Of a DNA stretch of 64,000 nucleotides, positions 19,796-36,279 are shown one piece after another. Source of the DNA: Marinobacter qingdaonensis. Its GTDB lineage: Bacteria > Pseudomonadota > Gammaproteobacteria > Pseudomonadales > Oleiphilaceae. A program made the translations under genes and the position numbers. The DNA lies in the NCBI RefSeq assembly GCF_034555935.1, contig NZ_JAYDCJ010000003.1, positions 1,302,001-1,366,000 on the forward strand, written 5' to 3'. The notes beneath the pieces were generated by a model, which worked only from the letters and a program-made list of their open reading frames with translations, ran no database searches and had not been told where the DNA came from. Every line of letters starts with the position of its first letter. The first letter of the stretch is position 1.

Positions 19796-20500
19796 ATGTC
19801 TGATCTTGAAGGTTTCGGATTCGTCCTGCCGCACTGGTTCTACTGGGGCTGGCTTGCGGTCATGCCGCTGATCATGATGGCTTGGGACAAATGGAGCAGT
19901 AGCCATGGCGGCGATACCGGCGTGCCAGAGAAAACGCCGGCCGAGATTCAGGCGGAAGAGGAAGATCCGCTGATCTATCTGGGGTTTGAAGGCAACTGGT
20001 TCACCAAGACCATCGACTGGATCAGTGAGAAGTCCGGTGTCTTTGTCGCGTTCTGGACCGTGAACGCGGTGGTTTTCTATTTCTTTGAAGTGGTCATGCG
20101 TTACCTGTTCAACATGCCGACCATCTGGGTGCACGAGGCCAGCTTCCTGCTGCTGGGTATGCAGTACCTGCTGGCGGGTGCCTTCGCCCTGCTGCACGGC
20201 GCCCATGTGCGGGTGGATGTGATGTACAACCTGTTGCCGATTCGCGGGCGCGTGGGCATGGACATCTTTACGTCCATGTTCTTTTTCATGTTCGCGCTGA
20301 TTCTGATGGTGACTTCCTGGACCTTCTTCCAGAACTCCTACTCCATGGGAGAAACCACCGTGGAGACCTGGGGCATCCAGTACTGGCCGGTTAAGGCCAT
20401 GATGTTGCTGGGCTCCATTCTGCTTTTGCTGGCAGGCATATCCAAGCTGATCAAGGATATCGTCCTGTTCGTTCGTCTTGGCCGGGAGGGCACCGTATGA
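19796..20500 (+). CDS. dctQ: TRAP transporter small permease (DctQ family)
   Basis: A 234-residue DctQ-type protein. Besides the four-helix core (about residues 85-225) it has an extra N-terminal segment with a membrane helix (about 12-30) and a charged linker. Motifs such as EVVMRYLFNMPTIWVHEASF and GAHVRVDVMYNLLP are standard for DctQ. It forms the membrane complex with the DctM subunit, whose start overlaps its stop by four bases (ATGA). Confidence 0.9.
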   Translation: MSDLEGFGFVLPHWFYWGWLAVMPLIMMAWDKWSSSHGGDTGVPEKTPAEIQAEEEDPLIYLGFEGNWFTKTIDWISEKSGVFVAFWTVNAVVFYFFEVVMRYLFNMPTIWVHEASFLLLGMQYLLAGAFALLHGAHVRVDVMYNLLPIRGRVGMDIFTSMFFFMFALILMVTSWTFFQNSYSMGETTVETWGIQYWPVKAMMLLGSILLLLAGISKLIKDIVLFVRLGREGTV

Positions 20501-22032
20501 CTTCGATTACAACAACGGCGCCGGCCAGCAACCTGATGGGTAAGCTGGGTACCTGGCTGATGATTCTGGGCACGGTGGCGCTGGCGTTTGTCATCTGTGT
20601 CGAAATGATCAACATCCTGTTCTACGACCCGTTCAGCGATGAGAAATTCCTCTTCAAGCTGTCCGGGAGCCTGTCCGATGTGAAGATCGGGCCGCTGACC
20701 TACCTGATGTTCGGCTCCCTCGCGGTCGCCCTGATGATGGGCCTGCCCCTGGCGTTCGTGACCGGTGGTCTGGGGGTCATGTTCATCTACCTGGTGGGCG
20801 ACTCGCTGATGCTGAACATCGTGCCGAGCCGGATCTTCCCGATGATGACCAACTCGGACCTGGCGGCGATCCCGCTGTTCATCTTCATGGCCTCCATGCT
20901 TGAGCGGGCCGGGTTGATCGAGGAAATGTTCAGCGTGGTGTACAAGTGGATGGGCGGCCTCAGTGGCGGTCTGGCCACCGCCACCATCCTGGCCTCCACC
21001 ATCCTCGCCGCCATGGTCGGGGTCATCGGTGCCGCCGTGGTGACCATGGGCATCATCGCCCTGCCGGCGATGCTCAAGCGCGGGTACGACCACAAGATCG
21101 CCCTGGGCTCGATCATGGCCGGTGGTACCCTGGGCATCCTGATTCCGCCCTCGATCCTGGCCATCCTGTACGCGGTGGTGGCCCAGCAGTCGGTGGGTGA
21201 GTTGTACCTGGGCTCGGTGGTTCCCGGGCTGATGCTGTCCGGCCTGTACATCACCTATGTCCTGGTGCGCAGCTGGATCAACCCGAAACTGGGGCCGCCG
21301 GTGCCGGTGGAGGAACGCATCTCCCTGCGTGAGAAGCTGATCCTCCTGCGCGGCCTGATCGCCCCGCTGATCCTGGTCGGCCTGGTGCTGGGCCTGCTGT
21401 TCGGGGGTATTGCCACGCCGGTGGAAGCGGCCGGTATCGGCTCCTTCGGCGCCATCGTGGTGGCCATGATGCACGGCAAGTTCTCCATCAGTGGCCTGCG
21501 TGAGGCCTCGGTGACCACCGCCAAGGCCTCGGCCATGGTGCTCTGGATCATGTTTGGTGCCTCGGTATTCGTGGGTTTCTACATCCTCCAGGGCGGCCAG
21601 CAGTTCGTGACCGAGGCCATCCTGGGTACCGGGCTCTCGGCCTACGGCATCCTGTTCCTGCTGATGGTTCTGCTGGTTGTTCTTGGCATGTTCCTGGACT
21701 GGGTTGGTATCCTGTTGCTGGCCGTGCCCATCTTCATTCCGATCGTGGAGGCACTGGAGTTCCAGGGCCTGTTCGGCTTCCCGCCGGTGTCCGGCGAGGA
21801 TGTGGTGCTCTGGTTCGGTGTGCTTTACCTCGTAAACATGCAAATGTCGTTTCTCAGCCCGCCGTTTGGTTATGCGCTGTTCTACATCCGTGGGGTCTGC
21901 CCGCCGGAAATTTCCATGGGCACCATCTTCCGGTCGTCCCTGGTGTTCCTGGCCATTCAGGCTTTCGGACTATTTATGTGCATCCTGATTCCGGGCATCG
22001 TGACCTGGCTGCCGGGACTGGTTTACGGCTAA
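20497..22032 (+). CDS. dctM: TRAP transporter large permease (DctM family)
   Basis: The 511-residue main transport subunit, with about 12-14 membrane segments. Typical stretches are GLPLAFVTGGLGVMF, AIPLFIFMASMLERAGL, and GGTLGILIPPSILAILYAVV. It imports the solute with a sodium gradient. It is coupled to dctQ by a four-base overlap and followed 22 bases later by glcG, placing transport and oxidation in one transcript. Confidence 0.92.
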   Translation: MTSITTTAPASNLMGKLGTWLMILGTVALAFVICVEMINILFYDPFSDEKFLFKLSGSLSDVKIGPLTYLMFGSLAVALMMGLPLAFVTGGLGVMFIYLVGDSLMLNIVPSRIFPMMTNSDLAAIPLFIFMASMLERAGLIEEMFSVVYKWMGGLSGGLATATILASTILAAMVGVIGAAVVTMGIIALPAMLKRGYDHKIALGSIMAGGTLGILIPPSILAILYAVVAQQSVGELYLGSVVPGLMLSGLYITYVLVRSWINPKLGPPVPVEERISLREKLILLRGLIAPLILVGLVLGLLFGGIATPVEAAGIGSFGAIVVAMMHGKFSISGLREASVTTAKASAMVLWIMFGASVFVGFYILQGGQQFVTEAILGTGLSAYGILFLLMVLLVVLGMFLDWVGILLLAVPIFIPIVEALEFQGLFGFPPVSGEDVVLWFGVLYLVNMQMSFLSPPFGYALFYIRGVCPPEISMGTIFRSSLVFLAIQAFGLFMCILIPGIVTWLPGLVYG

Positions 22033-22054
22033 TTCACTCAAGGAGCAAAATTTT

Positions 22055-22480
22055 ATGTTGACCATTAACCGACTGGATCTGGCGGATGCCCGGATCCTCA
22101 TCGAAGGCGCCGCCGAAAAGGCGCGGGAAATTGGCGTGCCCATGTGCATCGCCATCGTGGACGAATCCGGCAACCTGATCGCCTTTGAGCGCATGGACGG
22201 CGGCAAGATCACCAGTGTGACCATTGCCCAGGACAAGGCGTTCACGGCGGCGGCCGCCAAGAAAGCAACCCACGACTACAACAAGGTCAATACCCCGGGC
22301 AGTCTGGCCTTCGGCATTCACACCGAAGTCGGCGGCCGGCTCAGCTCGGTCGGCGGTGGCCTGCCGGTCGTGGTCAATGGCGAAGTGGTGGGCGGCATCG
22401 GCCTGAGCTCCGGTACGCCTCAGCAGGACATGGACTGTGCCCAGGCCGGTATCGACCACTTTGAAACCAAACGCAGTTAA
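22055..22480 (+). CDS. glcG: GlcG/HbpS-like protein
   Basis: A 141-residue protein of the GlcG/HbpS family (ARILIEGAAEKAREIGVPMC, IAIVDESGNLIAFERMDG, GGLPVVVNGEVVGGIGLSSG). Members accompany glycolate oxidase genes and other catabolic clusters; the biochemical role is unsettled, with haem binding shown only for distant HbpS. A strong AAGGAG site lies before the ATG. The gene sits between the transporter and glcD, not at the end of the glc operon as in E. coli. Confidence 0.85.
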   Translation: MLTINRLDLADARILIEGAAEKAREIGVPMCIAIVDESGNLIAFERMDGGKITSVTIAQDKAFTAAAAKKATHDYNKVNTPGSLAFGIHTEVGGRLSSVGGGLPVVVNGEVVGGIGLSSGTPQQDMDCAQAGIDHFETKRS

Positions 22481-22496
22481 CCGCTGTCACACCTGA

Positions 22497-22522
22497 ACTG
22501 GCAGGCCTTGGGGCCTGCCAGT
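22497..22522 (+). terminator. Perfect 11-bp intra-operon hairpin between glcG and glcD
   Basis: ACTGGCAGGCC (22497-22507) pairs perfectly with GGCCTGCCAGT (22512-22522) around a TTGG loop. No T-run follows, so it is more likely an RNA-processing or stability hairpin, or a weak attenuator, than a true terminator. It ends 48 bases before the glcD start. Confidence 0.5.
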
Positions 22523-22570
22523 GTGCCCGCCTCCGGGCGGCCCCGACGTGACACGAATTCAGAGATTGTT

Positions 22571-24043
22571 ATGACTACCAAGCCAACAGTCAGCAAAGCC
22601 GAGCTGGCGGAGCAGTTCCGGTCGTTCATCGACCCGAACTTCGTCATCTCCGACAGCGAGACCATGAAGCCCTACGAGTGCGACGGCATGTCGATGTACT
22701 GCGAGATGCCGCTGCTGGTGGTGCTGCCCGAAACCGTGGAGCAGGTGCAGCGGGTGATGCGCATCTGCAACGAGCACAAGGTGCCGGTGGTGGCCCGGGG
22801 TGCCGGGACCGGGCTCAGTGCCGGTGCCATGCCTCACAAAGAGGGCGTGGTGCTGTCGCTGGCCAAGTTCAATCGCATCCTGGAGATTGACCCGCTGGCG
22901 CGAACGGCGCGTTTGCAGCCGGGGGTCCGTAACCTCGCGATCAGTGAGGAAGCGGCCCAGTACGGCCTGTATTACGGCCCGGATCCGTCGTCGCAGATTG
23001 CCTGCACCATTGGTGGCAACGTTGCGGAGAACTCCGGCGGTGTGCACTGCCTGAAGTACGGGCTCACCGTGCACAACCTGCACAGCGTCGAGATGGTCAC
23101 CGCCGAAGGCGACGTGGTGACTGTCGGCAGCGATGCCCTGGATGTGTGCGGCATGGACCTGCTGGCGCTGATGACCGGCTCGGAGGGCCTGCTTGGGGTA
23201 GTCACCGAAGTGAAGGTGAAACTGCTGCCCAAGCCGGAGGTGGCCCGGGTGGTCATGGCCGGCTTCGACAGCGTCCAGAACGGTGGCGATGCGGTTGGTG
23301 GCGTGATCTCCCACGGCATCATCCCGGGCGGGTTGGAAATGATGGACAGCCACGCCATTGTCGCCGCCGACGATTTTGCCAAGGCCGGCTACCCGCGGGA
23401 AGCCAAGGCCCTGTTGCTGTGCGAGGTGGACGGTACCGCCGAGGAGGTGGACGAGCACATCGCCCAGGCCGAGGAGGTGTTCCGCAAGTTTGGCGCCACC
23501 TCGATCCGCACCTCCGAAAGCGAGGAGGAGCGGGCCCTGCTCTGGAAGGGGCGGAAGTCGGCGTTCCCGGCGGTGGGCCGGATCTCGCCCGACTACTACT
23601 GCATGGACGGCACCATTCCCCGGCGCGAGCTGGCCAACGTGCTGCTGCGCATGGAGGAGATGTCCGAGGAATTTGGCCTGCGCGTGGCTAACGTGTTCCA
23701 CGCCGGCGACGGCAACCTGCACCCGCTGATCCTGTTCGATGCCAACGTGCCCGGTGAGTTCGAGCGCACCGAGGCCTTCGGCAGCAGCATCCTCAACCTC
23801 TGTGTCGAGGTGGGTGGCTGCATCACCGGTGAACACGGCGTGGGCGTCGAGAAGATCCGGCAGATGGCGGTGCAGTTCAACGACGACGAGCTGCAGCAGT
23901 TCCACGATGTCAAAGCCGCCTTCGACCCCGCCGGGATCCTGAACCCGGGCAAGGGCGTGCCGGCCCTGAAATTCTGTCAGGAATACCGCTCCCTGGAACA
24001 CAAACAACACAAGCACGAACAGACGGAAGCCGCCCATGGCTGA
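22571..24043 (+). CDS. glcD: Glycolate oxidase subunit GlcD (FAD-linked)
   Basis: A 490-residue flavoprotein with an FAD-binding PCMH domain (VVARGAGTGLSAGAMPHKEG, IGGNVAENSGGVHCLKYGLT) and an FAD-oxidase C-terminal domain (NVFHAGDGNLHPLI, CITGEHGVGVEK). It oxidises glycolate, and often D-lactate-like substrates, to the 2-oxo acid with GlcE and GlcF. An upstream in-frame reading exists from 22508, but the ATG at 22571 gives the usual N-terminus and length. The stop overlaps glcE by eight bases. Confidence 0.92.
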   Translation: MTTKPTVSKAELAEQFRSFIDPNFVISDSETMKPYECDGMSMYCEMPLLVVLPETVEQVQRVMRICNEHKVPVVARGAGTGLSAGAMPHKEGVVLSLAKFNRILEIDPLARTARLQPGVRNLAISEEAAQYGLYYGPDPSSQIACTIGGNVAENSGGVHCLKYGLTVHNLHSVEMVTAEGDVVTVGSDALDVCGMDLLALMTGSEGLLGVVTEVKVKLLPKPEVARVVMAGFDSVQNGGDAVGGVISHGIIPGGLEMMDSHAIVAADDFAKAGYPREAKALLLCEVDGTAEEVDEHIAQAEEVFRKFGATSIRTSESEEERALLWKGRKSAFPAVGRISPDYYCMDGTIPRRELANVLLRMEEMSEEFGLRVANVFHAGDGNLHPLILFDANVPGEFERTEAFGSSILNLCVEVGGCITGEHGVGVEKIRQMAVQFNDDELQQFHDVKAAFDPAGILNPGKGVPALKFCQEYRSLEHKQHKHEQTEAAHG

Positions 24044-25103
24044 TATTTCCCAACAACTGATTGAGAGAGTGCTCGAAGCCCGCGACGGCGGGCACAAACT
24101 GAACATTGTCGGCGGTGGCAGCAAGGCCTTCATGGGCCGGGCGGCCGATCCGGATGCCGGCACCCTGAACGTTGGCGAACACACCGGCATCGTCGAGTAC
24201 CACCCGGTGGAGTTGGTGCTGACCGTGCGCGCCGGAACCACGATCAGCGAGATCGAGGCGACGCTGGCAGAGCAGGGCCAGGCCCTGCATTTTGAGCCAC
24301 CGCGGCTGGCGCCGGAGGCGACCATTGGTGGCACCCTGGCGACCAACCTGTCGGGCCCGGCCCGACCCTGGTCCGGCTCGGTGCGCGACCAGGTGCTGGG
24401 TGTCCGGCTGCTGAACGGCAAGGGCGAGCATCTGCGCTTTGGTGGCCAGGTCATGAAGAACGTGGCCGGTTACGACGTCTCCCGCCTCCAGGCCGGTGCC
24501 ATGGGCACCCTGGGCGTGATGACGGAGATCAGCCTCAAAGTCATGCCCAAGCCGGCCGCGTCCATGACCCTGGTGCAGGAGATGGCCATGGATGAGGTGA
24601 TTCACTACATGAACAGCCGGTCGGCCGAACCCAAGCCCATCACCGGCGCCTGCTGGGTCGATGGCAAGGTCTATCTGCGCTTGTCCGGTGCCCGCTCGGC
24701 GGTGGAAGCCACGGCCGAGAAATGGTCCGGCGAGGTGCTGGAGCAGGGCGATGCCTTCTGGCAGCAGGTCCAGGACATGCAGCACGAATTCTTCGCCGGT
24801 AATGACGTGCCCCTGTGGCGCTTCTCGGTGGGCTCGACCGCGGCCACGCCGCCCCTGGAGGGTAACTGGTTCATCGACTGGGCCGGCGCCCAGCGCTGGT
24901 ACCGGGGTGAGGGCCAGCTCAGCGATATGGAGCCCCTGGCCCGGGCTGCGGGCGGACAGGTCAGCCTGTTCCGTGGCGGCGACCGCAACGGCGAGGTGAT
25001 GCACCACCAGCCCGATGCGCTGAAGAGCATTCAGCGTCGGGTCAAGAATTCCTTCGATCCGGACAACATTTTCAATCCCGGACGTTTATACAGCTGGTTG
25101 TAA
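24036..25103 (+). CDS. glcE: Glycolate oxidase subunit GlcE
   Basis: A 355-residue second FAD-binding subunit. The N-terminal PCMH-like half contains NIVGGGSKAFMGR, TIGGTLATNLSGPARPW and GGQVMKNVAGYDVSRL, which are diagnostic for GlcE. The C-terminus ends FDPDNIFNPGRLYSWL. It works as a complex with GlcD and the iron-sulfur subunit GlcF. It begins inside the end of glcD, so the two are translationally coupled. Confidence 0.93.
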   Translation: MADISQQLIERVLEARDGGHKLNIVGGGSKAFMGRAADPDAGTLNVGEHTGIVEYHPVELVLTVRAGTTISEIEATLAEQGQALHFEPPRLAPEATIGGTLATNLSGPARPWSGSVRDQVLGVRLLNGKGEHLRFGGQVMKNVAGYDVSRLQAGAMGTLGVMTEISLKVMPKPAASMTLVQEMAMDEVIHYMNSRSAEPKPITGACWVDGKVYLRLSGARSAVEATAEKWSGEVLEQGDAFWQQVQDMQHEFFAGNDVPLWRFSVGSTAATPPLEGNWFIDWAGAQRWYRGEGQLSDMEPLARAAGGQVSLFRGGDRNGEVMHHQPDALKSIQRRVKNSFDPDNIFNPGRLYSWL

Positions 25104-25116
25104 GAGCAGGAATACG

Positions 25117-26325
25117 ATGCAAACGAATCTGGTTCAACAATTTGCCAATACCGCGGAAGGGCAGGAGGCCGAATCCATCTTGCGGGCCTGTGTCCACTGC
25201 GGCTTCTGTACGGCCACCTGCCCGACCTACCAGGAACTGAACGACGAACGTGACGGCCCAAGAGGCCGGATCTACCTCATGAAGATGTTCCTGGAGGGGC
25301 AGGAGGCCACGGAAAAAACCCGGGAGCACCTGGACCGCTGTCTGACCTGTCGCAGCTGCGAAACCACCTGTCCCTCCGGCGTGCAGTATGGCCGCCTGGT
25401 GGACATCAGTCGCGGCCTGATGGAGCAGGAGCTGCCCCGGGCGCCCAAGGACAAGTGGATCCGCTGGGCCCTGGCCCGGGTGATCCCGAACCGACAGCTG
25501 TTCGGTCTGTTGTTGCGTCTGGGGCAGGTGTTCCGGCCGGTGCTGCCGGCGCCGTTGCGCACCAAGGTGCCACCGCGTAAACAGGCCAGCCCCTGGCCCG
25601 CGGCCAGTCACAACCGCATTGTGCTGGCGCTGGCCGGGTGTGTGCAGCCTTCGGCCACGCCGAACACCAATGCGGCGGCGGCCCGGGTGCTCGACAAACT
25701 GGGCATTACCATGGTGGAGGCACCGGAAGCCGGTTGCTGCGGCGCGGTGAACTATCACCTGTCCGAGCACGAGAAGGGTCTGGAACGCATGCGCCAGAAC
25801 ATCGACGCCTGGTGGCCCGCCATCGAGGCTGGCGCCGAGGCAATCATCATGACGGCTTCCGGCTGCGGCGCCATGGTGCAGGATTACGGTCACCTGCTGA
25901 AGGACGATCCAGTCTACGCCGCCAAGGCCCAGAAAGTCAGCGAACTGAGCATCGACATCGGTGCCTTCCTGCTCAAGCAGGATCTGGACAAGCTCAAGCT
26001 GAGCCAGAGCCCGGGCAAGGTGGCCTTCCATTGTCCCTGCACCCTGCAGCACGCCATGCAGCAGAACGGCGTGGTCGAGCAGGTGCTGACCAAGGCCGGG
26101 GTCAATCTGGCCGCCACCAAGGACAAGCACCTGTGCTGCGGCTCCGCCGGTACCTACTCGGTGCTGCAACCGGAGCTGAGCCAGAAGCTCCTGGGCAACA
26201 AGCTCGAGGCGCTGACCGTGGACAACCCAGACCGCATCGTCACCGCCAACATCGGCTGCCAGATGCACCTGGAAACCAAGGCGCAAGTGCCGGTCCAGCA
26301 CTGGATTGAGCTGCTGGATCAGTAA
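25117..26325 (+). CDS. glcF: Glycolate oxidase iron-sulfur subunit GlcF
   Basis: A 402-residue protein with two 4Fe-4S motifs, CVHCGFCTATCP and CLTCRSCETTCP. Two cysteine-rich CCG-type domains follow, shown by EAGCCGAVNYHL and HLCCGSAGTYSV. It passes electrons from the flavin subunits toward the quinone pool at the inner membrane. It is the last gene of the run; a strong terminator follows at 26336. Confidence 0.94.
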   Translation: MQTNLVQQFANTAEGQEAESILRACVHCGFCTATCPTYQELNDERDGPRGRIYLMKMFLEGQEATEKTREHLDRCLTCRSCETTCPSGVQYGRLVDISRGLMEQELPRAPKDKWIRWALARVIPNRQLFGLLLRLGQVFRPVLPAPLRTKVPPRKQASPWPAASHNRIVLALAGCVQPSATPNTNAAAARVLDKLGITMVEAPEAGCCGAVNYHLSEHEKGLERMRQNIDAWWPAIEAGAEAIIMTASGCGAMVQDYGHLLKDDPVYAAKAQKVSELSIDIGAFLLKQDLDKLKLSQSPGKVAFHCPCTLQHAMQQNGVVEQVLTKAGVNLAATKDKHLCCGSAGTYSVLQPELSQKLLGNKLEALTVDNPDRIVTANIGCQMHLETKAQVPVQHWIELLDQ

Positions 26326-26546: not shown

Positions 26547-26562
26547 TGGCACGCGAGATGCT
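26547..26562 (+). promoter_or_regulatory. Sigma-54 (-24/-12) promoter of the E1 alpha operon
   Basis: TGGCAC-GCGAG-ATGCT has the invariant GG at -24 and GC at -12 with exactly 10 bases between. It lies about 80 bases upstream of the E1 alpha start. A sigma-54 activator gene belongs to the same cluster, which supports the call. Confidence 0.7.
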
Positions 26563-26642: not shown

Positions 26643-27629
26643 ATGACGCCAACCCAAGAACAAGAACTCTGGATGTACCGAAACATGGTCGTCAGTCGTT
26701 TCTTTGAGGAAACGATTGAGAAGATTTACATGGAGGGGAAAACCCCGGCATTCAACATGGCCAAGGGCCCGATTCCGGGCGAGATGCACTTGTCCAATGG
26801 GCAAGAGCCTTGTGCCGTGGGTGTGTGTGCACACCTCAATAGTGATGACATCGTCGTTTCTACCCATCGTCCTCATCACGTTGCGATCGCCAAGGGCGTC
26901 GACCTGAAGAAGATGGCCGCGGAGATCTTCGGTAAGAAAACCGGATTGAGTGGTGGTCGTGGTGGGCACATGCACATCTTTGACGCTCAGGTGAATTTTT
27001 CCTGCTCTGGGATCATCGGTGAGAGTGTCGGTGTCGCAGCAGGCGCCGCGTTGTCCCGGAAAATGCAAGGAAAGCCAGGGGTAGCGGTTGCCTACTTGGG
27101 AGAGGGTGCCGCGAACCAAGGCGCGTTTCACGAGGCGCTCAACCTGGCCGCGGTGTGGAAACTGCCGGTTGTCTTTGTCATTGAGGACAACGCCTGGGGA
27201 ATTTCGGTATCCAAGCAGGCCAGCACCGCCGTCAAGTACAACTCCGACCGAGCTTCGGCCTATTCAATGCCCGGTGTGCACATTCCCAACAACGATCCCA
27301 TCGAGATTTTCGCAAAGGCCGGAGAAGCCATTGAGCGCGCCAGAAAGGGCGAGGGCCCAACCCTCATAGAAATTGAAACGTCTCGGCTTGCGGGCCATTT
27401 CATGGGCGATGCCGAGGCTTATCGCCCCGCCGGTGAAAAGGAGCACCTTGCAGAGATCGACCCGATTCCGGGGTTCAAGAAACGATTGCAAGACCAATAC
27501 CAGTGGACCGAAGCGCAGGATGAAGCGCTCAGAGGTCAGGCGCGAGAACTGGTCGACGCCGCCATTCAATTCGCTCGTGACAGTGACTATCCGGCCCCCG
27601 AAGAGGCGCTGGACAAGGTCTTCGTTTGA
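26643..27629 (+). CDS. Thiamine-diphosphate-dependent dehydrogenase E1 alpha subunit (AcoA/PdhA-like)
   Basis: A 328-residue E1 alpha protein of the acetoin/pyruvate/branched-chain dehydrogenase family. The thiamine-diphosphate motif is GEGAANQGAFHEALNLAAVW, ending in VIEDN. SGGRGGHMHIFD is also typical. With the E1 beta subunit it would decarboxylate a 2-oxo acid or cleave an acyloin such as acetoin and load the acyl group on lipoate. AcoA is the best guess because the cluster has an AcoR-like activator, but the substrate is not shown. A GGGGGA ribosome site precedes the ATG. It heads a run of seven rightward genes. Confidence 0.88.
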   Translation: MTPTQEQELWMYRNMVVSRFFEETIEKIYMEGKTPAFNMAKGPIPGEMHLSNGQEPCAVGVCAHLNSDDIVVSTHRPHHVAIAKGVDLKKMAAEIFGKKTGLSGGRGGHMHIFDAQVNFSCSGIIGESVGVAAGAALSRKMQGKPGVAVAYLGEGAANQGAFHEALNLAAVWKLPVVFVIEDNAWGISVSKQASTAVKYNSDRASAYSMPGVHIPNNDPIEIFAKAGEAIERARKGEGPTLIEIETSRLAGHFMGDAEAYRPAGEKEHLAEIDPIPGFKKRLQDQYQWTEAQDEALRGQARELVDAAIQFARDSDYPAPEEALDKVFV

Positions 27630-27658
27630 GATTTGGGCATTTAATCAGGAGAAGAAAG

Positions 27659-28687
27659 ATGACGCAGGTTCAAGCGAAAGCTCGCAAACTGACCATCGCT
27701 CGCGCCATGGCTGAGTCCATCGCCATGGAGATGCGTACCGACGACAAAGTGTTTGTCATGGGTGAGGACATCGGTGAACTGGGTGGAGTGTTCGGTAATA
27801 CACGGGGGCTGTACAAGGAGTTCGGGTCGGAGCGTGTGAAAGATACCCCGATCTCTGAAACCGCCTTTATCGGTGCTGCGGTCGGCGCCGCCTCAGACGG
27901 GATGAAACCGATAGTCGAGCTGATGTTCGTGGACTTCTTTGGGGTTTGTTTTGACGCCATCTACAACATGATGGCGAAGAACACCTATTTCTCGGGGGGT
28001 GAGGTCAACGTGCCGATGGTGCTGATGACCTCAACTGGCGGCGGCTACAGCGATGGCGGTCAGCATTCGCAATGTCTGCACGCGACCTTCGCACACCTGC
28101 CTGGCATGAAGGTTGTCGCACCGTCCAACGCCTACGATGCCAAGGGGCTAATGACCGCCGCTATACGTGATCCCAATCCGGTAATTTTCATGTTCCACAA
28201 GGCGCTGCAGGGAATGGGCTGGTTGGGCACTGAGAAAGACGCCATCGTCAATGTGCCGGAGGAGGTTTACGAAGTGCCTCTGGGTCAGGCCGCCATCACC
28301 AGAACCGGTAGCGACGTCACGATCGTTGGCATCACCTCGGGGGTGCATCATGGCCTGAAAGCCGCACGGGAGCTTGAGCAGCAAGGTGTCAGCGCCGAGG
28401 TTGTGGACCTCCGTTCGCTGGTCCCGTTGGACCGGGACACTGTCATCCAGTCTGTACGGAAAACGGGCCGACTCATCGTTGTGGATGAGGATTACCACAG
28501 CTACGGCATGACCGCAGAAATCATCGCCTCGGTCACTGAGGCCGGCGTCCCCATGAAAGCACCACCTCAACGGGTGGCTTACCCCGATATTCCAATTCCG
28601 TTCACGCCTGTCATGGAACAGTGGGCACTGCCCAGTGCGGAAAAGATCGTCAAAGCATTCGAAAAAATGAAGGAGAACGAAGAATGA
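27659..28687 (+). CDS. Thiamine-diphosphate-dependent dehydrogenase E1 beta subunit (AcoB/PdhB-like)
   Basis: The 342-residue E1 beta partner. It has the transketolase pyrimidine-binding N-terminal domain (KVFVMGEDIGELGGVFGNTR, PISETAFIGAAVGAA) and a transketolase C-terminal domain (GVSAEVVDLRSLVPLDRDTV, FEKM end). ATG at 27659 has an AGGAGAAG site and gives the usual start; an upstream in-frame start at 27626 would add 11 atypical residues. The stop overlaps the start of the lipoyl-protein gene (ATGA). Confidence 0.9.
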   Translation: MTQVQAKARKLTIARAMAESIAMEMRTDDKVFVMGEDIGELGGVFGNTRGLYKEFGSERVKDTPISETAFIGAAVGAASDGMKPIVELMFVDFFGVCFDAIYNMMAKNTYFSGGEVNVPMVLMTSTGGGYSDGGQHSQCLHATFAHLPGMKVVAPSNAYDAKGLMTAAIRDPNPVIFMFHKALQGMGWLGTEKDAIVNVPEEVYEVPLGQAAITRTGSDVTIVGITSGVHHGLKAARELEQQGVSAEVVDLRSLVPLDRDTVIQSVRKTGRLIVVDEDYHSYGMTAEIIASVTEAGVPMKAPPQRVAYPDIPIPFTPVMEQWALPSAEKIVKAFEKMKENEE

Positions 28688-28917
28688 GCACAGATGTCCT
28701 GGTTCCGCATGATTTGTGGGAAGAAGACGATGAGGCGGTGATCACGTCATGGTTGGTCAACGATGGCTCCGAGGTTTCTGAAGGCGACATGATTGCGGAG
28801 CTGATGGTGGCGAAGATCCAGTATGAACTTTTGGCACCCACCTCCGGCACCTTGTCGATCCAAAAAGACATTGACGATGTGGTCGCAAAGGGCGACTGCG
28901 TCGCTACCATCGCATAG
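28684..28917 (+). CDS. Free-standing lipoyl-domain carrier protein
   Basis: Only 77 residues: one lipoyl/biotinyl domain and nothing else. The probable modified lysine is Lys44 in the hairpin ELMVAKIQYELLAPTSG; the usual DKA triplet is replaced by AKI. VNDGSEVSEGD and VVAKGDCVATI are the flanking half-repeats of the domain. In standard complexes this domain is the N-terminus of E2; here it is a separate protein and would shuttle acyl groups between E1 and the short E2 encoded next. It is translationally coupled to E1 beta by a four-base overlap. Confidence 0.85.
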   Translation: MSTDVLVPHDLWEEDDEAVITSWLVNDGSEVSEGDMIAELMVAKIQYELLAPTSGTLSIQKDIDDVVAKGDCVATIA

Positions 28918-28935
28918 GCTTTTGGAGCCAACGCC

Positions 28936-29622
28936 ATGTCAGAGAACGAACATATCAACGTGATCCCGCTCAGAGGAATGCGGGGCATGATCGCTAGCAA
29001 CATGCGGCGCAGTCTCGATGAGGCGGCCCAGTTGACCCACCACGCGGAGTGCGAGCTGGACGCCCTGCTGAGCTTCAAAGAAGCGCTGGCGGAAAGCGGG
29101 ACCAAGGTTTCTATCGAAGATTTGTTGGCGGACTGCGTCGTGAAAACCCTGGCGAGACATCCGGGGCTGAACGGTCGGATCGAAGACAAGGAGATTCGCC
29201 AGTACCGCAACGTGCATCTGGGGTTTGCCATTGCCCTGCCGGGCGACAAGTTAGTCGCACCGGTGGTCTTCGATGCCAATGAGAAAGGTCTGACCGAGAG
29301 GGCGGACGCCCGGAAAAACCTGCTGGAGCGGGCAAGGAAAGGTGACCTCTCCGTGCCGGAGATGACCGGCGGAACGTTCACGCTCAGCAATCTGGGGCGC
29401 TCCCGTGTTCGCTTTTTTACCCCCATCGTCAATCTTCCTCAACTGGCGATTCTGGGGATAGGCGAAACCTACACCAGGCCCATCGAGGATGGTGCCGGAC
29501 GATGGCAATCCCGCCGCTTCATGGGACTGTCGTTGACTTTCGATCACCGGGCGGTCGACGGCGGGCCTGCGGCGGCGTTTCTCAGCGAATTGTGTGAGGA
29601 GATCGAAAGTGCTGGCCGCTAA
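28936..29622 (+). CDS. Minimal dihydrolipoamide acyltransferase (E2 core only)
   Basis: This 228-residue protein is just the catalytic domain of a 2-oxoacid dehydrogenase E2. It starts directly with VIPLRGMRGMIASNMRRSLD, and the active-site block is FDHRAVDGGPAAAF at about residues 200-214. Normal E2 proteins of about 400 or more residues carry lipoyl and E1/E3-binding domains in front; both are absent. It would transfer the acyl group from the separate lipoyl carrier to CoA. Its end overlaps the lipoate ligase gene. Confidence 0.88.
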   Translation: MSENEHINVIPLRGMRGMIASNMRRSLDEAAQLTHHAECELDALLSFKEALAESGTKVSIEDLLADCVVKTLARHPGLNGRIEDKEIRQYRNVHLGFAIALPGDKLVAPVVFDANEKGLTERADARKNLLERARKGDLSVPEMTGGTFTLSNLGRSRVRFFTPIVNLPQLAILGIGETYTRPIEDGAGRWQSRRFMGLSLTFDHRAVDGGPAAAFLSELCEEIESAGR

Positions 29623-30367
29623 AGAGACAGGGGTTCTGGCGCAGAACGCCCTTTGCTGTACGACGCCGATGCCCGTTCAAGAAGGGCTGGCGATTGAGCA
29701 GCGTCTGCTGGAACAGGTCACGTCCGGGCGCAACCGCTGGGGTTATGCCATCTGGAGATGCCATCAGGCGCTGGTCGTGCCGCGCAGTGCTACCCACAAG
29801 CCCGGTTTTGAGCTGGCGTCGCGATACTGTGAGTCTCAGGGCTGGCCCGTGGTGGTTCGAAGTACTGGCGGTGAAATGACGCCGCAGACCCATGGCTTCA
29901 TAAATCTGTCGATGGTGGTGCGTAGCAACGGGGTAAAAACCGGCATCAGGGACAGTTACTTGCTGATCTGTCAGCCGCTCATTCAGTGGCTGGAGGCGAT
30001 GGGTATTCACGCCTATTGCTCCCACGTCGATGGCGCGTTCTGCGATGGTGATTTCAACCTGGTCGTTAACGGGAAAAAAATCGCGGGCACGGCACAGCGG
30101 AGGAAACGTCTCAAGGTTCCGTCGTCAACCGGTCAGGACGAGGATACGGCGATTTTGCTACATGCCGTGATTCTGTGTGACGAAGGTCTGGAACGCATCT
30201 GGAAAATCTCCAACGAGTTCTACAAGGCCTGCCAACTGCCGCCGTTCATCATTGGCGATCGCCATATCTGCATGTCGGAGGTGACGCAGCAGCACGGTGA
30301 GTCGTTTATCAGTGGGGCAATGAGGGATCTGGACAAGGTGATCAAACAGCACATTTCCCTGTTTTGA
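29609..30367 (+). CDS. Lipoate-protein ligase A-like enzyme
   Basis: A 252-residue member of the BPL/LplA/LipB family. RSTGGEMTPQTHGFINLS corresponds to the RRxGGG lipoate loop. CDGDFNLVVNGKKIAGTAQR is the adenylate-binding region, with the active lysine in GKKIAGTAQRR. Two GTG starts are possible; GTG at 29609 lies seven bases after a GAGGAGA site inside the E2 gene. Its place in the operon suggests it lipoylates the free carrier protein specifically. The short size fits enzymes lacking the accessory C-terminal domain. Confidence 0.85.
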   Translation: MLAAKETGVLAQNALCCTTPMPVQEGLAIEQRLLEQVTSGRNRWGYAIWRCHQALVVPRSATHKPGFELASRYCESQGWPVVVRSTGGEMTPQTHGFINLSMVVRSNGVKTGIRDSYLLICQPLIQWLEAMGIHAYCSHVDGAFCDGDFNLVVNGKKIAGTAQRRKRLKVPSSTGQDEDTAILLHAVILCDEGLERIWKISNEFYKACQLPPFIIGDRHICMSEVTQQHGESFISGAMRDLDKVIKQHISLF

Positions 30368-30443: not shown

Positions 30444-31004
30444 ATGAACAACGACAAAAACATTGCGAAACGCCCGAAAGTTCCGGGACACCGGATGAGT
30501 CGGAGGGGCTTCATCGCGGGTTCGGGCGCTACGCTCGTAGGGGGCGCGGCGCTGGTGTACAGCTCGGGCTTGTTCGCAGCGGACAGCCCGGCGGCAAAGA
30601 AGATTGGTGAAGAAGGTAACCGGACCCTGCTGCGAATGGCCAGGGACGTTTTCCCGCACGACAGCCTCGAAGACAAGTACTACCAGCAGGTCATGGTGCC
30701 TCTTGCGAAACGAGCTGAGACTGACCCGAAACTGATGGAACTGCTCACCGTAGGCATTGCGGCCCTTAACCAGGAATCGAGAGCCAAGCATGGCGCCATT
30801 TATTTGAACGTGAAGGCAGAGGAAGACCGGGTGGTGGTTCTGAAAGCCATGGAGTCCTCAGCCTTTTTCCAGAGGATCAAGGGCGATCTCATGATGGGAA
30901 TCTACAACAACCCGGAAATCTGGGAAAAGTTTGGATTTGGCGGTTCTTCATGGGAGCGCGGCGGCTACATCAATCGCGGCTACGACGAAATCGACTGGAT
31001 TTAA
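30444..31004 (+). CDS. Gluconate 2-dehydrogenase subunit 3-like protein with Tat signal
   Basis: A 186-residue protein with a clear twin-arginine signal, MSRRGFIAGSGATLVGGAAL (about residues 14-33). The mature part resembles the small subunit of FAD-containing gluconate and other sugar or polyol dehydrogenases (ARDVFPHDSLEDKYY, YNNPEIWEKFGFGGSSWERG). That subunit is needed to export the signal-less catalytic subunit, here encoded 14 bases downstream. It probably acts in the periplasm. The usual cytochrome c subunit is not in the cluster. Confidence 0.82.
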   Translation: MNNDKNIAKRPKVPGHRMSRRGFIAGSGATLVGGAALVYSSGLFAADSPAAKKIGEEGNRTLLRMARDVFPHDSLEDKYYQQVMVPLAKRAETDPKLMELLTVGIAALNQESRAKHGAIYLNVKAEEDRVVVLKAMESSAFFQRIKGDLMMGIYNNPEIWEKFGFGGSSWERGGYINRGYDEIDWI

Positions 31005-31017
31005 GGGGGAGTGACCA

Positions 31018-32595
31018 ATGGCTCAATTTGATCTTAACGACGACAGCGTGGTGGTGATCATCGGTTCAGGCGCTGGTGGCGGCACCTTGGCCAACGAGTT
31101 GGCGCAGAAAGGCATCCGCTCTGTGGTACTTGAAGCCGGCAAACGCTTCAAGATGTCGGATATTGAGAACGACGAATGGAAAATGTTCGGCAAAATTTCC
31201 TGGCTGGACAAGCGCTACGTTGAAGGGCCGGCCCGTCTCGCCAAGGACTTTCCAAATCTTCCGGCGTGGATTGTAAAAGGGGTGGGTGGCGCTACCGTGC
31301 ACTGGGCTGGAGTTGCGATGCGATTCCAAGAGCATGAGTTCAAGATGAAAACCACGAATGGCGTGGTTCCCGGCGCGAATGTCTTGGACTGGCCCATCAC
31401 TTTGCAAGAAATGGAGCCTTATTACGAAAAGGCTGAGAAGAAAATGGGCGTGTGCGGGACCAAGGCCACGGGTATGCCATTCCATGGCAAGAGTAGCCAT
31501 TATAAGGTCGTCGAGGAGGGTGCGAAACGGATTGGAGCGCATTGCGAGCAGGCGCACCTTGCTATCAATACCCAGCCCCGTGACGGGCGTGCATCCTGTC
31601 AGGTCACAGGTTTTTGCATGCAAGGCTGCCGCTTTGGAGCGAAATGGTCGACCATGTACACCGAGATTCCCAAGGCCGAGGCCACGGGAAATGTGGAGGT
31701 TCGCCCGCAGTCTATGGTGTTGCGCATTGAGCACGACGCGAATGGCAAAGTTAATGGCGTTCTGTATGCCGATGGCGATGGTAATCAACACTTGCAGAAG
31801 GCCAGGGTCGTGGCCGTCGCCGGTAACTCTATCGAGTCACCGAGGATGCTGCTTAACTCCGCGTCCAGCTTGTTTCCCAATGGCCTTGCGAACTCCTCCG
31901 GCCAGGTCGGTCAGAACTATATGACCCATACCACCGGTGGGGTGTACGCGGAATTTGAGAAACCGGTCCATATGTACAAGAGCACCGTGGTGCCGGGGAT
32001 CGTCACGGAGTACCAGAATAACGATCCCACCCGCGGTCATTTGGCGGGGTACGAGCTGGAGATTCTGCACCTGGGGTTGCCTTTCATGTCTGCGTTCATG
32101 AATCCGGGCAAAAGTGGCTGGGGCCGGGAGCTGGCAGAGTCTCTGGAAAACTATGATCACATGGCCGGTTTTTGGATTTGTGGCGAGGACATGCCGGTCG
32201 AGTCCAACAACATCACTCTGCATCCCACCGAGAAGGATCAGTACGGACTGCCAGTACCGGTGGTTTATAAAACTGATCACATCAACGATACCCGCATGCG
32301 CAACCACGCCTATGCGCGCTCCAAGGAGTTGTTCGAGTCAGTGGGTGCCCTCAAGGTGACGGACCTGCCGCCATATCCCGCGAGTCACAACATGGGTACC
32401 AATCGCATGAGTGAGCGAGCGCGTGACGGAGTGGTCAATCGATGGGGACAGAGCCATGACATCGACAATCTCTTCGTCTCTGATGGCAGTCAGTTCACCA
32501 CCAGCGGAACCGAGAACCCGACCCTGACAATCGTCGCTCTCGCGATTCGACAGGCAGACTATATTGCGGATCAAATGAAAAAGCGAAATATCTGA
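31018..32595 (+). CDS. GMC-family FAD oxidoreductase, periplasmic dehydrogenase catalytic subunit
   Basis: This 525-residue flavoprotein has an N-terminal dinucleotide fold (VVVIIGSGAGGGTLANELAQ) and the C-terminal GMC domain with HNMGTNRMS, containing the probable active-site histidine, and TTSGTENPTLTIVALAIR. It lacks a signal peptide, as expected for a subunit carried out by the Tat-exported partner. It would oxidise an alcohol, polyol or sugar acid. In this cluster it may produce the keto or acyloin compound that the E1/E2 enzymes then cleave; that order is inference. A terminator follows 46 bases after the stop. Confidence 0.87.
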   Translation: MAQFDLNDDSVVVIIGSGAGGGTLANELAQKGIRSVVLEAGKRFKMSDIENDEWKMFGKISWLDKRYVEGPARLAKDFPNLPAWIVKGVGGATVHWAGVAMRFQEHEFKMKTTNGVVPGANVLDWPITLQEMEPYYEKAEKKMGVCGTKATGMPFHGKSSHYKVVEEGAKRIGAHCEQAHLAINTQPRDGRASCQVTGFCMQGCRFGAKWSTMYTEIPKAEATGNVEVRPQSMVLRIEHDANGKVNGVLYADGDGNQHLQKARVVAVAGNSIESPRMLLNSASSLFPNGLANSSGQVGQNYMTHTTGGVYAEFEKPVHMYKSTVVPGIVTEYQNNDPTRGHLAGYELEILHLGLPFMSAFMNPGKSGWGRELAESLENYDHMAGFWICGEDMPVESNNITLHPTEKDQYGLPVPVVYKTDHINDTRMRNHAYARSKELFESVGALKVTDLPPYPASHNMGTNRMSERARDGVVNRWGQSHDIDNLFVSDGSQFTTSGTENPTLTIVALAIRQADYIADQMKKRNI

Positions 32596-34278: not shown

Positions 34279-36279
34279 TTAGCTTTCTTGAGGTTCGAGC
34301 AGAAGTCCGTGAGCTTTTATTTTTCGGTGCAGGGTTGAGCGGCTGACGCCCAGGGCTTTGGCAGCACGCGTAACATTCCAGCGATTGGTTTCCAGCGCGG
34401 CGATCAGTTGCTGTTTCTCCGGCGACTGCGAAGTTGCGCCGTTGCCGCTGGACTGGGCTACCGAAGCCGTGCCAGCAGAGAAATCTTCAAGGCCAGGATT
34501 AAGCACCTCGCCCGCAAGATCGTCGATCTGGATGTCCCGGCCTTCGCGCATACACGCGGCGCAATGCAGAACGTTCTTCAATTGACGGATATTGCCAGGC
34601 CAGGGGTAGCTCACCAGGGCTTGCTCTGCTTCCGTGGCTAATCCAATGGGATCAGGGTCTCCCAGTTCCGAGCGAATCTGTTCCAGCACTTTCCGTATCA
34701 GCTCGCTTTTATCCTGTCGATTCCTGAGTGCTGGAAGCGTCACTTTGAAAACGCTGATTCGGTAGTAAAGATCTTCCCGAAAGTCGCCCTGACTGACATA
34801 TTGCTCCAGATCTCGGTGGGTGGCGCAGATCACATTGATGTCGATTGGTACGGGCTCCACCTCGCCCAATGGAATGATCTCCTTTTCGGCAAGCACACGT
34901 AGCAAGCGAGCTTGAAGCTCAGCCGGCATATCACCAATTTCATCCAGAAACAGGGTGCCACCGTCACTGGCTTCTATTTTGCCTTTCTTGCCCGATTTCA
35001 GGCCTCCGGTGAACGTGCCAGCCCCGTAACCGAACAGTTCGCTTTCAATCAATGTTTCCGGGATGGCGGCACAATTTACGGCAACGAACGGACGTCCGCG
35101 TCTTGCACTGCTGTCATGAAGCGCCTTCGCCCACACTTCTTTGCCGGTGCCGGTTTCACCCTGAATCAACGTAATAACACCGCGATCGACTATGCGCATG
35201 CAGCTGTTGGCCTGCCTGATCAGGGCAGGGTCGGACCCTGCAGCTTCGAGTAGCGGCGTGTGCTGCTCAGGGGGCAAGCGCTTCAGGCCAATGCTTGAGG
35301 TGCGCTTTGTCTGCGCAGCTGCAGTCTGCCGGCGCAATGTCTCCTGCTGGGGTTTGGCTTCTGGTGGGCGCAGTTCCAAGTGGAGATCGAATTCGGCGTT
35401 GTTGAATTGGAACTGGTGGTGGAATGGCGCAGGCTGGAATAGCTCGTTCCTGCTGATTTGGAACGCCTCTTCGACACCCTTTCCTACGAGGTCATATCTC
35501 TGCCGGCAATTGAGCGCCATTAAGGCCGTGGTCGTGGCCGCGATCACTGTTCCGTTATCGTTAAAGGCGACCAGCGCGGTGTTCATGTTAGCCGCACCGG
35601 CCAGGTTGATTATATGCTGGTTTTTGTAGGCACCTCGAAAAATAAGCGCCTCAATCTCATTGGCAGTCTCTGTCACGAAATTCAGTGCCAGGGCCTGGCC
35701 GAGGCGGTTGCCACTGGCGAACGTGGACATGTCCAAGCCGCCGACGATACTTCCATCGGCCCCAATGAGGGGGGCAGCAGAGCAGCTGAAACATTGCAGG
35801 TTCGTGCCGTAGTGCTCGCTGGCGTCAACCGTAATAGGTCGCTTTTCCTCCAGACAGGTACCTAATCCGTTGGTGCCAACTATGGCCTCTTGCCAAAGCG
35901 TGCCCTGTCTCAAGCCCTTCGACTGCAATGCACGGTCATGGTCCGAGTCGGTGAACGCCTTGACCGTCACTCCTTCAGCATTGCTGATCAGCACGCTGTA
36001 GCCGCTTTGTCGCGCTACCCGGCGTATTCTTTGAATGATGCTGTGAGAATCGAACAAGAGCTGTTCCAGGGGTTCTCGTTTTTCCTGGATTTCCCGTTCA
36101 GTCAGAGAGCAAAGTTTGATGGTTCTCTGAGGCTCAATCTTGTATTTGTCTTTACACCGCTGCCAGGAGGATTGGATATAGCTGGCGTCATTCTCTGGGG
36201 TGACGGCCGGAGCGGTTGAAGTACTGGATGTGTAAGAGCCATTATTGTTGCGCATGTGCTCATTCTCATTGGCGACCAT
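34279..36279 (-). CDS. acoR: AcoR-type sigma-54-dependent transcriptional activator
   Basis: This 666-residue enhancer-binding protein has an N-terminal GAF-like sensor (about residues 80-220: GTNGLGTCLEEKRPITV, HYGTNLQCFSCSAAPL), a PAS-like middle, an AAA+ domain (Walker A GETGTGKE near 373; GGTLFLDEIGDMP) and a Fis-type helix-turn-helix at the C-terminus (NVTRAAKALGVSRSTLHRKI). The sigma-54 contact loop reads GTFTGG instead of GAFTGA. Family members of this build regulate acetoin and alcohol catabolism. It is convergent with the porin and most likely drives both sigma-54 promoters found in this cluster. ATG at 36255 is an alternative start. Confidence 0.85.
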   Translation of the reverse strand: MVANENEHMRNNNGSYTSSTSTAPAVTPENDASYIQSSWQRCKDKYKIEPQRTIKLCSLTEREIQEKREPLEQLLFDSHSIIQRIRRVARQSGYSVLISNAEGVTVKAFTDSDHDRALQSKGLRQGTLWQEAIVGTNGLGTCLEEKRPITVDASEHYGTNLQCFSCSAAPLIGADGSIVGGLDMSTFASGNRLGQALALNFVTETANEIEALIFRGAYKNQHIINLAGAANMNTALVAFNDNGTVIAATTTALMALNCRQRYDLVGKGVEEAFQISRNELFQPAPFHHQFQFNNAEFDLHLELRPPEAKPQQETLRRQTAAAQTKRTSSIGLKRLPPEQHTPLLEAAGSDPALIRQANSCMRIVDRGVITLIQGETGTGKEVWAKALHDSSARRGRPFVAVNCAAIPETLIESELFGYGAGTFTGGLKSGKKGKIEASDGGTLFLDEIGDMPAELQARLLRVLAEKEIIPLGEVEPVPIDINVICATHRDLEQYVSQGDFREDLYYRISVFKVTLPALRNRQDKSELIRKVLEQIRSELGDPDPIGLATEAEQALVSYPWPGNIRQLKNVLHCAACMREGRDIQIDDLAGEVLNPGLEDFSAGTASVAQSSGNGATSQSPEKQQLIAALETNRWNVTRAAKALGVSRSTLHRKIKAHGLLLEPQES

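Follow-up and report, generated by a model that had tools for sequence, protein, structure and literature searches.

The locus

The 64,000-nucleotide stretch of DNA analysed here (the window; G000:C3:1302001-1366000) is part of the 4.0-Mb genome of Marinobacter qingdaonensis and carries on its plus strand, at 26643-30367, five genes with close spacing or overlaps that encode a split dehydrogenase, apparently of the acetoin/2-oxoacid superfamily, in which the lipoyl carrier is a free protein. The first gene (26643..27629) encodes an E1alpha subunit of 328 amino acids (aa) of the thiamine diphosphate-dependent type (PF00676, 247 bits), and the second (27659..28687, with its ATG at 27659) an E1beta subunit of 342 aa matching PF02779, PF02780 and the model NF006667 (324 bits, cut-off 321). 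The 3' end of E1beta shares 4 bp with the start of the carrier gene (28684..28917), whose 77-aa product matches PF00364 (39.6 bits, cut-off 22.1) and holds Lys44 (codon 28813-28815) within the hairpin MVAKIQYE. Separated from the carrier by 18 bp, a distinct open reading frame (ORF) encodes the acyltransferase E2 (28936..29622; 228 aa), in which PF00198 (205 bits, residues 6-225) is the only Pfam match and which possesses a catalytic-type His204 (29545-29547) and Asp208. The last gene (29609..30367) encodes a LipL/LipM-like acyl transferase of family PF21948, which is 252 aa long from the GTG at 29609 and 257 aa from a GTG at 29594, with Cys145 (30041-30043) and Lys157 (30077-30079).

Conservation and distribution

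Each GTDB species was represented by one genome in a DNA-level scan for the carrier, which found 106 relatives; the counts given below refer to the best 80 of these. The order E1alpha-E1beta-carrier-E2-transferase is the same in 72 of the 80 loci. Among the eight exceptions, four (L058, L066, L071, L073) are truncated by contig ends, three (L038, L081, L091) have no transferase gene at the locus, and one (L092) has neither transferase nor E2. Carrier and E2 are separate in 79/80 loci, which stem from Gamma-, Alpha- and a Betaproteobacterium, and both pieces are highly conserved. The elements listed in a preliminary description of the window, namely a separate 77-aa lipoyl protein and a 228-residue E2 core, are all present in the sequence and recur across these loci. 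It should be noted that protein searches return only sequences of 0.55-1.75 times the query length, so that the uniform 77 aa among carriers from such a search arises partly by construction; the DNA-level scan is not limited in this way.

The split dehydrogenase with a free lipoyl carrier is real, conserved and present in many marine and soil bacteria. Its hosts include Gammaproteobacteria (Marinobacter, Marinobacterium, Amphritea, Neptuniibacter, Granulosicoccus), many Alphaproteobacteria, and Acidovorax. Plasmid copies occur in Phaeobacter and Roseibium, and also in Aminobacter (L109) without an annotated E1alpha; the Aminobacter copy lies among transposase genes and has a short hypothetical ORF where E1alpha is expected. 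Within the genus Marinobacter the carrier was found at E < 1e-30 in four of 124 genomes, one of which has two copies, and the four Marinobacter loci read, the window's included, all show the complete order of five genes. The system is therefore an accessory trait of patchy distribution, yet conserved in the genomes that have it. Literature searches, with most subscription papers beyond their reach, yielded no earlier description of it.

The free carrier and the core-only E2

All 81 carriers, counting that of the window, have Lys44, the predicted site of lipoylation. The eight-residue hairpin around it starts with Met in 80 of these, the exception being LVEKVTLE in L092, and its commonest forms are MTAKVQYE (32), MVQKIQYE (10) and MVEKIQYE (9). 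The unusual hairpin remarked upon at the outset (VAKIQ in place of the usual DKA) is indeed present, and none of the 81 carriers has DKA. Other residues, such as DLWEED and W23, are also strongly conserved. The AlphaFold2 model of the carrier is all-beta (predicted local distance difference test 91.8) and places Lys44 in the tight turn that connects strands 36-42 and 45-50. Lipoyl and biotinyl domains rank together in a fold search with this model and, because both types match, the fold alone leaves the choice between them undecided; given the partner enzymes, lipoate is the sensible reading. Biotin carriers have the motif AMKM, and a role as biotin carrier is unsupported: AMKM is absent from the hairpin, and no carboxylase was found among the ten neighbour proteins scanned.

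Small free lipoyl proteins are familiar from the H protein of glycine cleavage and from LbpA of sulfur oxidisers, of which the latter likewise has a dedicated loading enzyme, according to the accessible part of PMC6067878. The H-protein-like logic attributed to the carrier in the preliminary description is supported. Unlike H protein and LbpA, however, the carrier is a 77-aa domain of E2 type with E1 and E2 as partners. Its best match is PF00364, it has no GCV_H match at 1e-3, and it reaches 22.5 bits against a GcvH-related model (cut-off 150); membership of the H protein/LbpA family was rejected for want of a GcvH-type domain.

The E2 had been described as stripped of its subunit-binding domain, and this proved general: a Pfam scan of the E2s shows PF00198 alone in 80/80, with neither lipoyl nor subunit-binding domain, while the same scan of four longer control E2s detected the subunit-binding domain in all four and the lipoyl domain in three. 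Pfam shows no additional domains in the E1 subunits of the window either. The catalytic His is found in 79/80 E2s, and the position of Asp208 holds Asp in 71/80 and Asn in 9/80. The protein therefore shares with the E2 of pyruvate and 2-oxoglutarate dehydrogenases the PF00198 core with its DHRAVDG motif and the catalytic His plus Asp/Asn, but it lacks the three-domain chain, i.e. the lipoyl and subunit-binding domains, and its tail is shortened. The distance from the catalytic His to the end of E2 is at most 25 residues in 67/80 (the window among them); in the other 13 the tail is longer but does not close with a clear LLL-type motif, as judged by sequence only. By comparison, a hydrophobic tail closes seven of eight longer E2s, the eighth (L106, from the same genome as the window) being short. 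In canonical E2 a terminal 3-10 helix links trimers through a knob-and-socket contact, and in actinobacterial E2 this helix is displaced and E2 stays a trimer, as stated in the accessible sections of PMC10415282. Most of the E2s studied here appear to lack the tail with which a cubic or icosahedral core is built; the E2 is probably a trimer. The actinobacterial OdhA/AceF system, as far as the same sections describe it, is similar in its trimeric E2 and in that E2 activity depends on the lipoyl domains of another protein; there, however, E1 and E2 are fused and the lipoyl domains are borrowed from AceF, whereas the carrier described here is a protein by itself.

A whole-genome search for E3 gave no match inside the window, in agreement with the preliminary description, which had reported no E3 gene. 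The genome has one E3 above the curated cut-off, whose neighbour is an E2 passing the SucB model, and this E3 would be the one borrowed. E3-like genes do lie nearby in 9/80 related loci; of each neighbour cluster treated here (E3, lipA, ExaC) a single member was scored against a curated model and the remaining members were assigned by similarity.

The putative loading enzyme

The preliminary description had also proposed a dedicated loading enzyme within the operon, a reading that is supported. Aligned to 2p0l and 2p5i, the transferases possess a Cys in an SYCPG loop and a Lys in GKKxAG in 76/76 cases, and we take this Cys to be the catalytic cysteine of LipL/LipM-type enzymes. Among the matches listed, 2p5i and 2p0l are the closest by profile and the best by fold, at about 20% identity. 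The LipL model NF053589 is matched by 22/22 transferases of set A2 and is the top model for 7/7 more from other loci. The enzyme resembles LipL and LipM of Firmicutes in fold and in the aligned Cys and Lys; it differs in that the window protein scores 58.7 bits, far under the LipL cut-off of 400, and in its occurrence in Proteobacteria, and LipL and LipM are not distinguishable here because reference sequences are lacking. The loading enzyme is closer to the cysteine transferases LipL/LipM than to LplA, and its chemistry would be ATP-independent octanoyl or lipoyl transfer. The genome of the window holds two PF21948 proteins, a confirmed LipB and the operon transferase, and no third. A survey reports, in the portion accessible to us, that Proteobacteria contain LipB only and never LipM (PMC10332631), and the transferase may point to a lipoyl-loading branch in this phylum.

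Six loci (L052, L061, L062, L068, L086, L089) have a lipA-like gene near the operon, of which the L052 LipA was scored (364.5 bits, cut-off 310.25), and each of these six genomes has at least two lipA genes over the cut-off (13 in all). An extra LipA near the operon speaks for a carrier that receives octanoyl first and has sulfur inserted afterwards. An Acinetobacter plasmid acetoin operon (L128:3684-4658) likewise has an adjoining lipA.

Regulation, neighbouring genes and substrate

A sigma-54 type -24/-12 element, TGGCACGCGAGATGC (26547..26561, plus strand), lies about 83 bp 5' of the E1alpha start. As one match in the window against 0.78 expected by chance it is weak alone. Across loci, with the window counted among 75 upstream regions, 28 have a site of at least 9/11 compared with 1.3% of simple base shuffles of these regions, and 24 have one of at least 10/11 compared with 0.1%, while 47/75 have no site reaching 9/11. 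A sigma-54 activator with GAF, sigma-54 AAA+ and Fis-type helix-turn-helix domains (34279..36279, minus strand; PF01590, PF00158, PF02954), presumably of AcoR type by its domain order, is the likely regulator of the operon, and relatives of it are present in 62/80 loci. Downstream of the transferase follow a Gluconate_2-dh3-like small subunit (30444..31004, plus strand; PF13618 at 22.7 bits, slightly below the cut-off of 23.4) and a flavoprotein oxidoreductase of the GMC family (31018..32595, plus strand; PF05199, PF00732), which have relatives in 46/80 and 45/80 loci, respectively; the GMC oxidoreductase is a possible preceding, alcohol-oxidising step. Apart from one tRNA, Rfam at gathering threshold detects nothing in the window.

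Acetoin cleavage yields acetaldehyde, and a sphingomonad locus (L059) has upstream an acetaldehyde dehydrogenase ExaC (908.3 bits, cut-off 900); L054 and L077 have an ORF of the same cluster. Beside the ExaC-type genes stands a propionate/acetate-CoA ligase-like protein, which is under the cut-offs (scored in L077). AhpD enzymes are able to take electrons from lipoyl proteins, and AhpD/carboxymuconolactone-decarboxylase-like proteins lie near the operon at L052:11147-11482 and L110:14483-14821, as also in the Paracoccus acetoin operon (L131). The system is thus similar to acetoin dehydrogenase (AcoABC plus E3) in the size of E1alpha and E1beta, a weakly supported nearness in the E1beta tree, the sigma-54 activator and, in a few loci, AhpD/carboxymuconolactone-decarboxylase-like and ExaC-type neighbours. 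It differs in that the E2 of the Paracoccus operon is a single AcoC chain, which presumably carries a lipoyl domain and fits the model PRK14875, whereas here lipoyl protein and E2 core are apart, the E2 has PF00198 only and no fused lipoyl domain, and a transferase is added. In E1 trees of 31 rows, 22 of which belong to the system (the window and 21 of the 80 loci), these 22 form one group (support 100/99) apart from the two further E1s of the same genome that were included.

Regulation and some of the neighbours point to an acyloin of acetoin type as the substrate cleaved, a reading that we favour somewhat. An alternative is a 2-oxoacid, for example from a neighbouring glycolate/lactate-type oxidase: at 20497-26325, directly upstream of the operon, the window has genes for a TRAP permease, an HbpS/GlcG-like protein and GlcD, GlcE and GlcF of a glycolate oxidase (presumptive names, taken from length and gene order, as the HbpS-like protein alone was scored), and GlcD, GlcE and GlcF likewise stand directly 5' in L014 and L015. 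However, within the flanks examined the full GlcDEF set is found in just 2/80 loci (L014 and L015, both Marinobacter), as opposed to the AcoR-type regulator in 62/80 and the GMC oxidoreductase in 45/80, and the ExaC of the sphingomonad locus also argues against a 2-oxoacid, which we consider possible but doubtful. The glycolate-oxidase genes may be unrelated to the operon.

Proposed mechanism and alternatives

We consider it likely that the operon encodes a dehydrogenase of the acetoin/2-oxoacid superfamily with a dismantled scaffold, a free carrier and its own LipL/LipM-like transferase. E1alpha and E1beta with thiamine diphosphate would cleave an acyloin (or a 2-oxoacid) and reductively acylate the lipoyl arm of the 8-kDa carrier, which would travel to the bare, probably trimeric E2, where the acyl group would be handed to coenzyme A. 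Re-oxidation of the reduced carrier would fall to the E3 of the 2-oxoglutarate dehydrogenase operon or, in some relatives, to a local E3. The cysteine transferase would prime the carrier either with octanoyl from acyl carrier protein or with octanoyl or lipoyl that it takes over from a different lipoyl protein. The carrier would be completed by the general LipA or, where a genome has one, by the second LipA near the operon.

Several observations weigh against parts of this reading. The E1alpha, E2 and transferase of the window all score below the curated cut-offs of the NCBIfam models that were listed for each. The loci L038, L081 and L091 lack the transferase, and the genomes of L081 and L091 hold one PF21948 protein each, of LipB strength. 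Because these two genomes carry the carrier with a single PF21948 protein, a dedicated transferase is not strictly needed, and LipB may suffice for the carrier there; the L038 genome has a second PF21948 match (45 bits, a 257-aa frame, compared with 36-82 bits for operon transferases of other genomes) and may possess an unlinked copy. Free carriers with a canonical hairpin occur in a second lineage too (see below), so that the odd hairpin is not required for a free carrier. ExaC is found in only 3/80 loci, counted upstream on the same strand. In the trees, E1beta is sister to three aco rows weakly (92/76), the placement of E1alpha lacks resolution, and long branches were flagged. Finally, the 373-aa E2 of the same genome (L106, G000:C1:367435-368541) keeps a lipoyl domain and yet has no hydrophobic core-joining tail.

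Giant assemblies are the hallmark of this enzyme family, but the parts probably work here without being joined, and the carrier may diffuse freely. In its strictest form, with an E1 tetramer, E2 trimer, E3 and 8-kDa carrier that are all separately soluble, served by a private cysteine octanoyl/lipoyl transferase and sometimes a private lipoyl synthase, we give the proposal an even chance. Alternatively, contacts outside the classical subunit-binding domain could hold the parts together in a stable complex, with a carrier that is not truly diffusible; the strict operon order and the conserved carrier residues (DLWEED, W23) as possible docking sites fit such a complex, but the subunit-binding domain is found in 0/80 E2s and the E1s of the window have no extra domain. 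Glycine cleavage, moreover, operates with a mobile H protein, and we regard a stable complex as unlikely. It is less probable still that the loading enzyme salvages free lipoate for the carrier as an ATP-dependent lipoate ligase of LplA type. The preliminary description had called it an LplA-type ligase, which is not supported: the window protein scores 29 bits against the LplA model TIGR00545 (cut-off 280), Pfam finds no match to the LplA accessory domain, and the LipL-type Cys is present in 76/76. An ordinary acetoin or 2-oxoacid dehydrogenase with an E2 gene split by local mutation, assembly error, frameshift or mis-called start, as might be suspected because canonical E2s hold lipoyl and catalytic domains in one chain, is refuted for the family and very improbable: 79/80 loci show the same split, the N-terminus of E2 is short in all of them, and the longer E2 ORFs called mechanically read the carrier gene in another frame.

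If the dismantled dehydrogenase works as proposed, it bears on how these enzymes function, which is usually credited to scaffolds and tethered swinging arms: a natural, conserved form without tether, docking domain and core-building tail would allow a direct measure of what scaffolding contributes. The small carrier/transferase pair might also be orthogonal and useful as a tool.

Other split loci

The split is not unique to the lineage of the window, because a second lineage combines a free lipoyl protein with a core-only E2. It was found in one Marinobacter genome (L145:3613-6629, G114:C1) and on plasmids of Paraburkholderia, Diaphorobacter and Azospirillum (L146, L147, L148). Here a free lipoyl protein of 76 aa with the canonical hairpin ESDKS adjoins a core-only E2 of about 250 aa, and E1alpha and E1beta precede the carrier except in Azospirillum, where transposases take this place; MMPL and YCF48-like genes lie 5' of the operon in three of the four loci, Azospirillum (L148) being the exception. 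Unlike in the lineage of the window, a search with a single query sequence found no LipL-like transferase gene in these loci, and the E2 cores of the two lineages are about 31% identical. Among the loci examined, it is the lineage that has lost the canonical hairpin motif in which the transferase is found. A Variovorax relative of the second E2 unites lipoyl and subunit-binding domains in a single chain. In a search that excludes longer proteins, 7999 relatives were scored and 120 of them listed; one of these (383 aa) has a subunit-binding domain and the rest PF00198 only.

Partial arrangements were also encountered. At L092:7269-8237, in a sphingomonad metagenome-assembled genome, the order is E1alpha-E1beta-carrier, the latter with the deviating hairpin LVEKVTLE, and neither core E2 nor transferase was detected within 8 kb. 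Thermus plasmid pTF28b (L129:4995-7185) has E1alpha, E1beta and, under the annotation hypothetical, a canonical lipoyl protein of 82 aa, after which TRAP transporter genes follow; no E2 lies nearby. Sphingobium plasmid pTomTYG72a (L132:5989-6684, L144) encodes a core-only E2 of 231 aa, likewise annotated as hypothetical, near which no carrier was found. With 166 bits this protein is nearer to the E2 of the window than the longer E2s tested, and its gene adjoins an epoxide-hydrolase-like gene, with E1 genes on the opposite strand.

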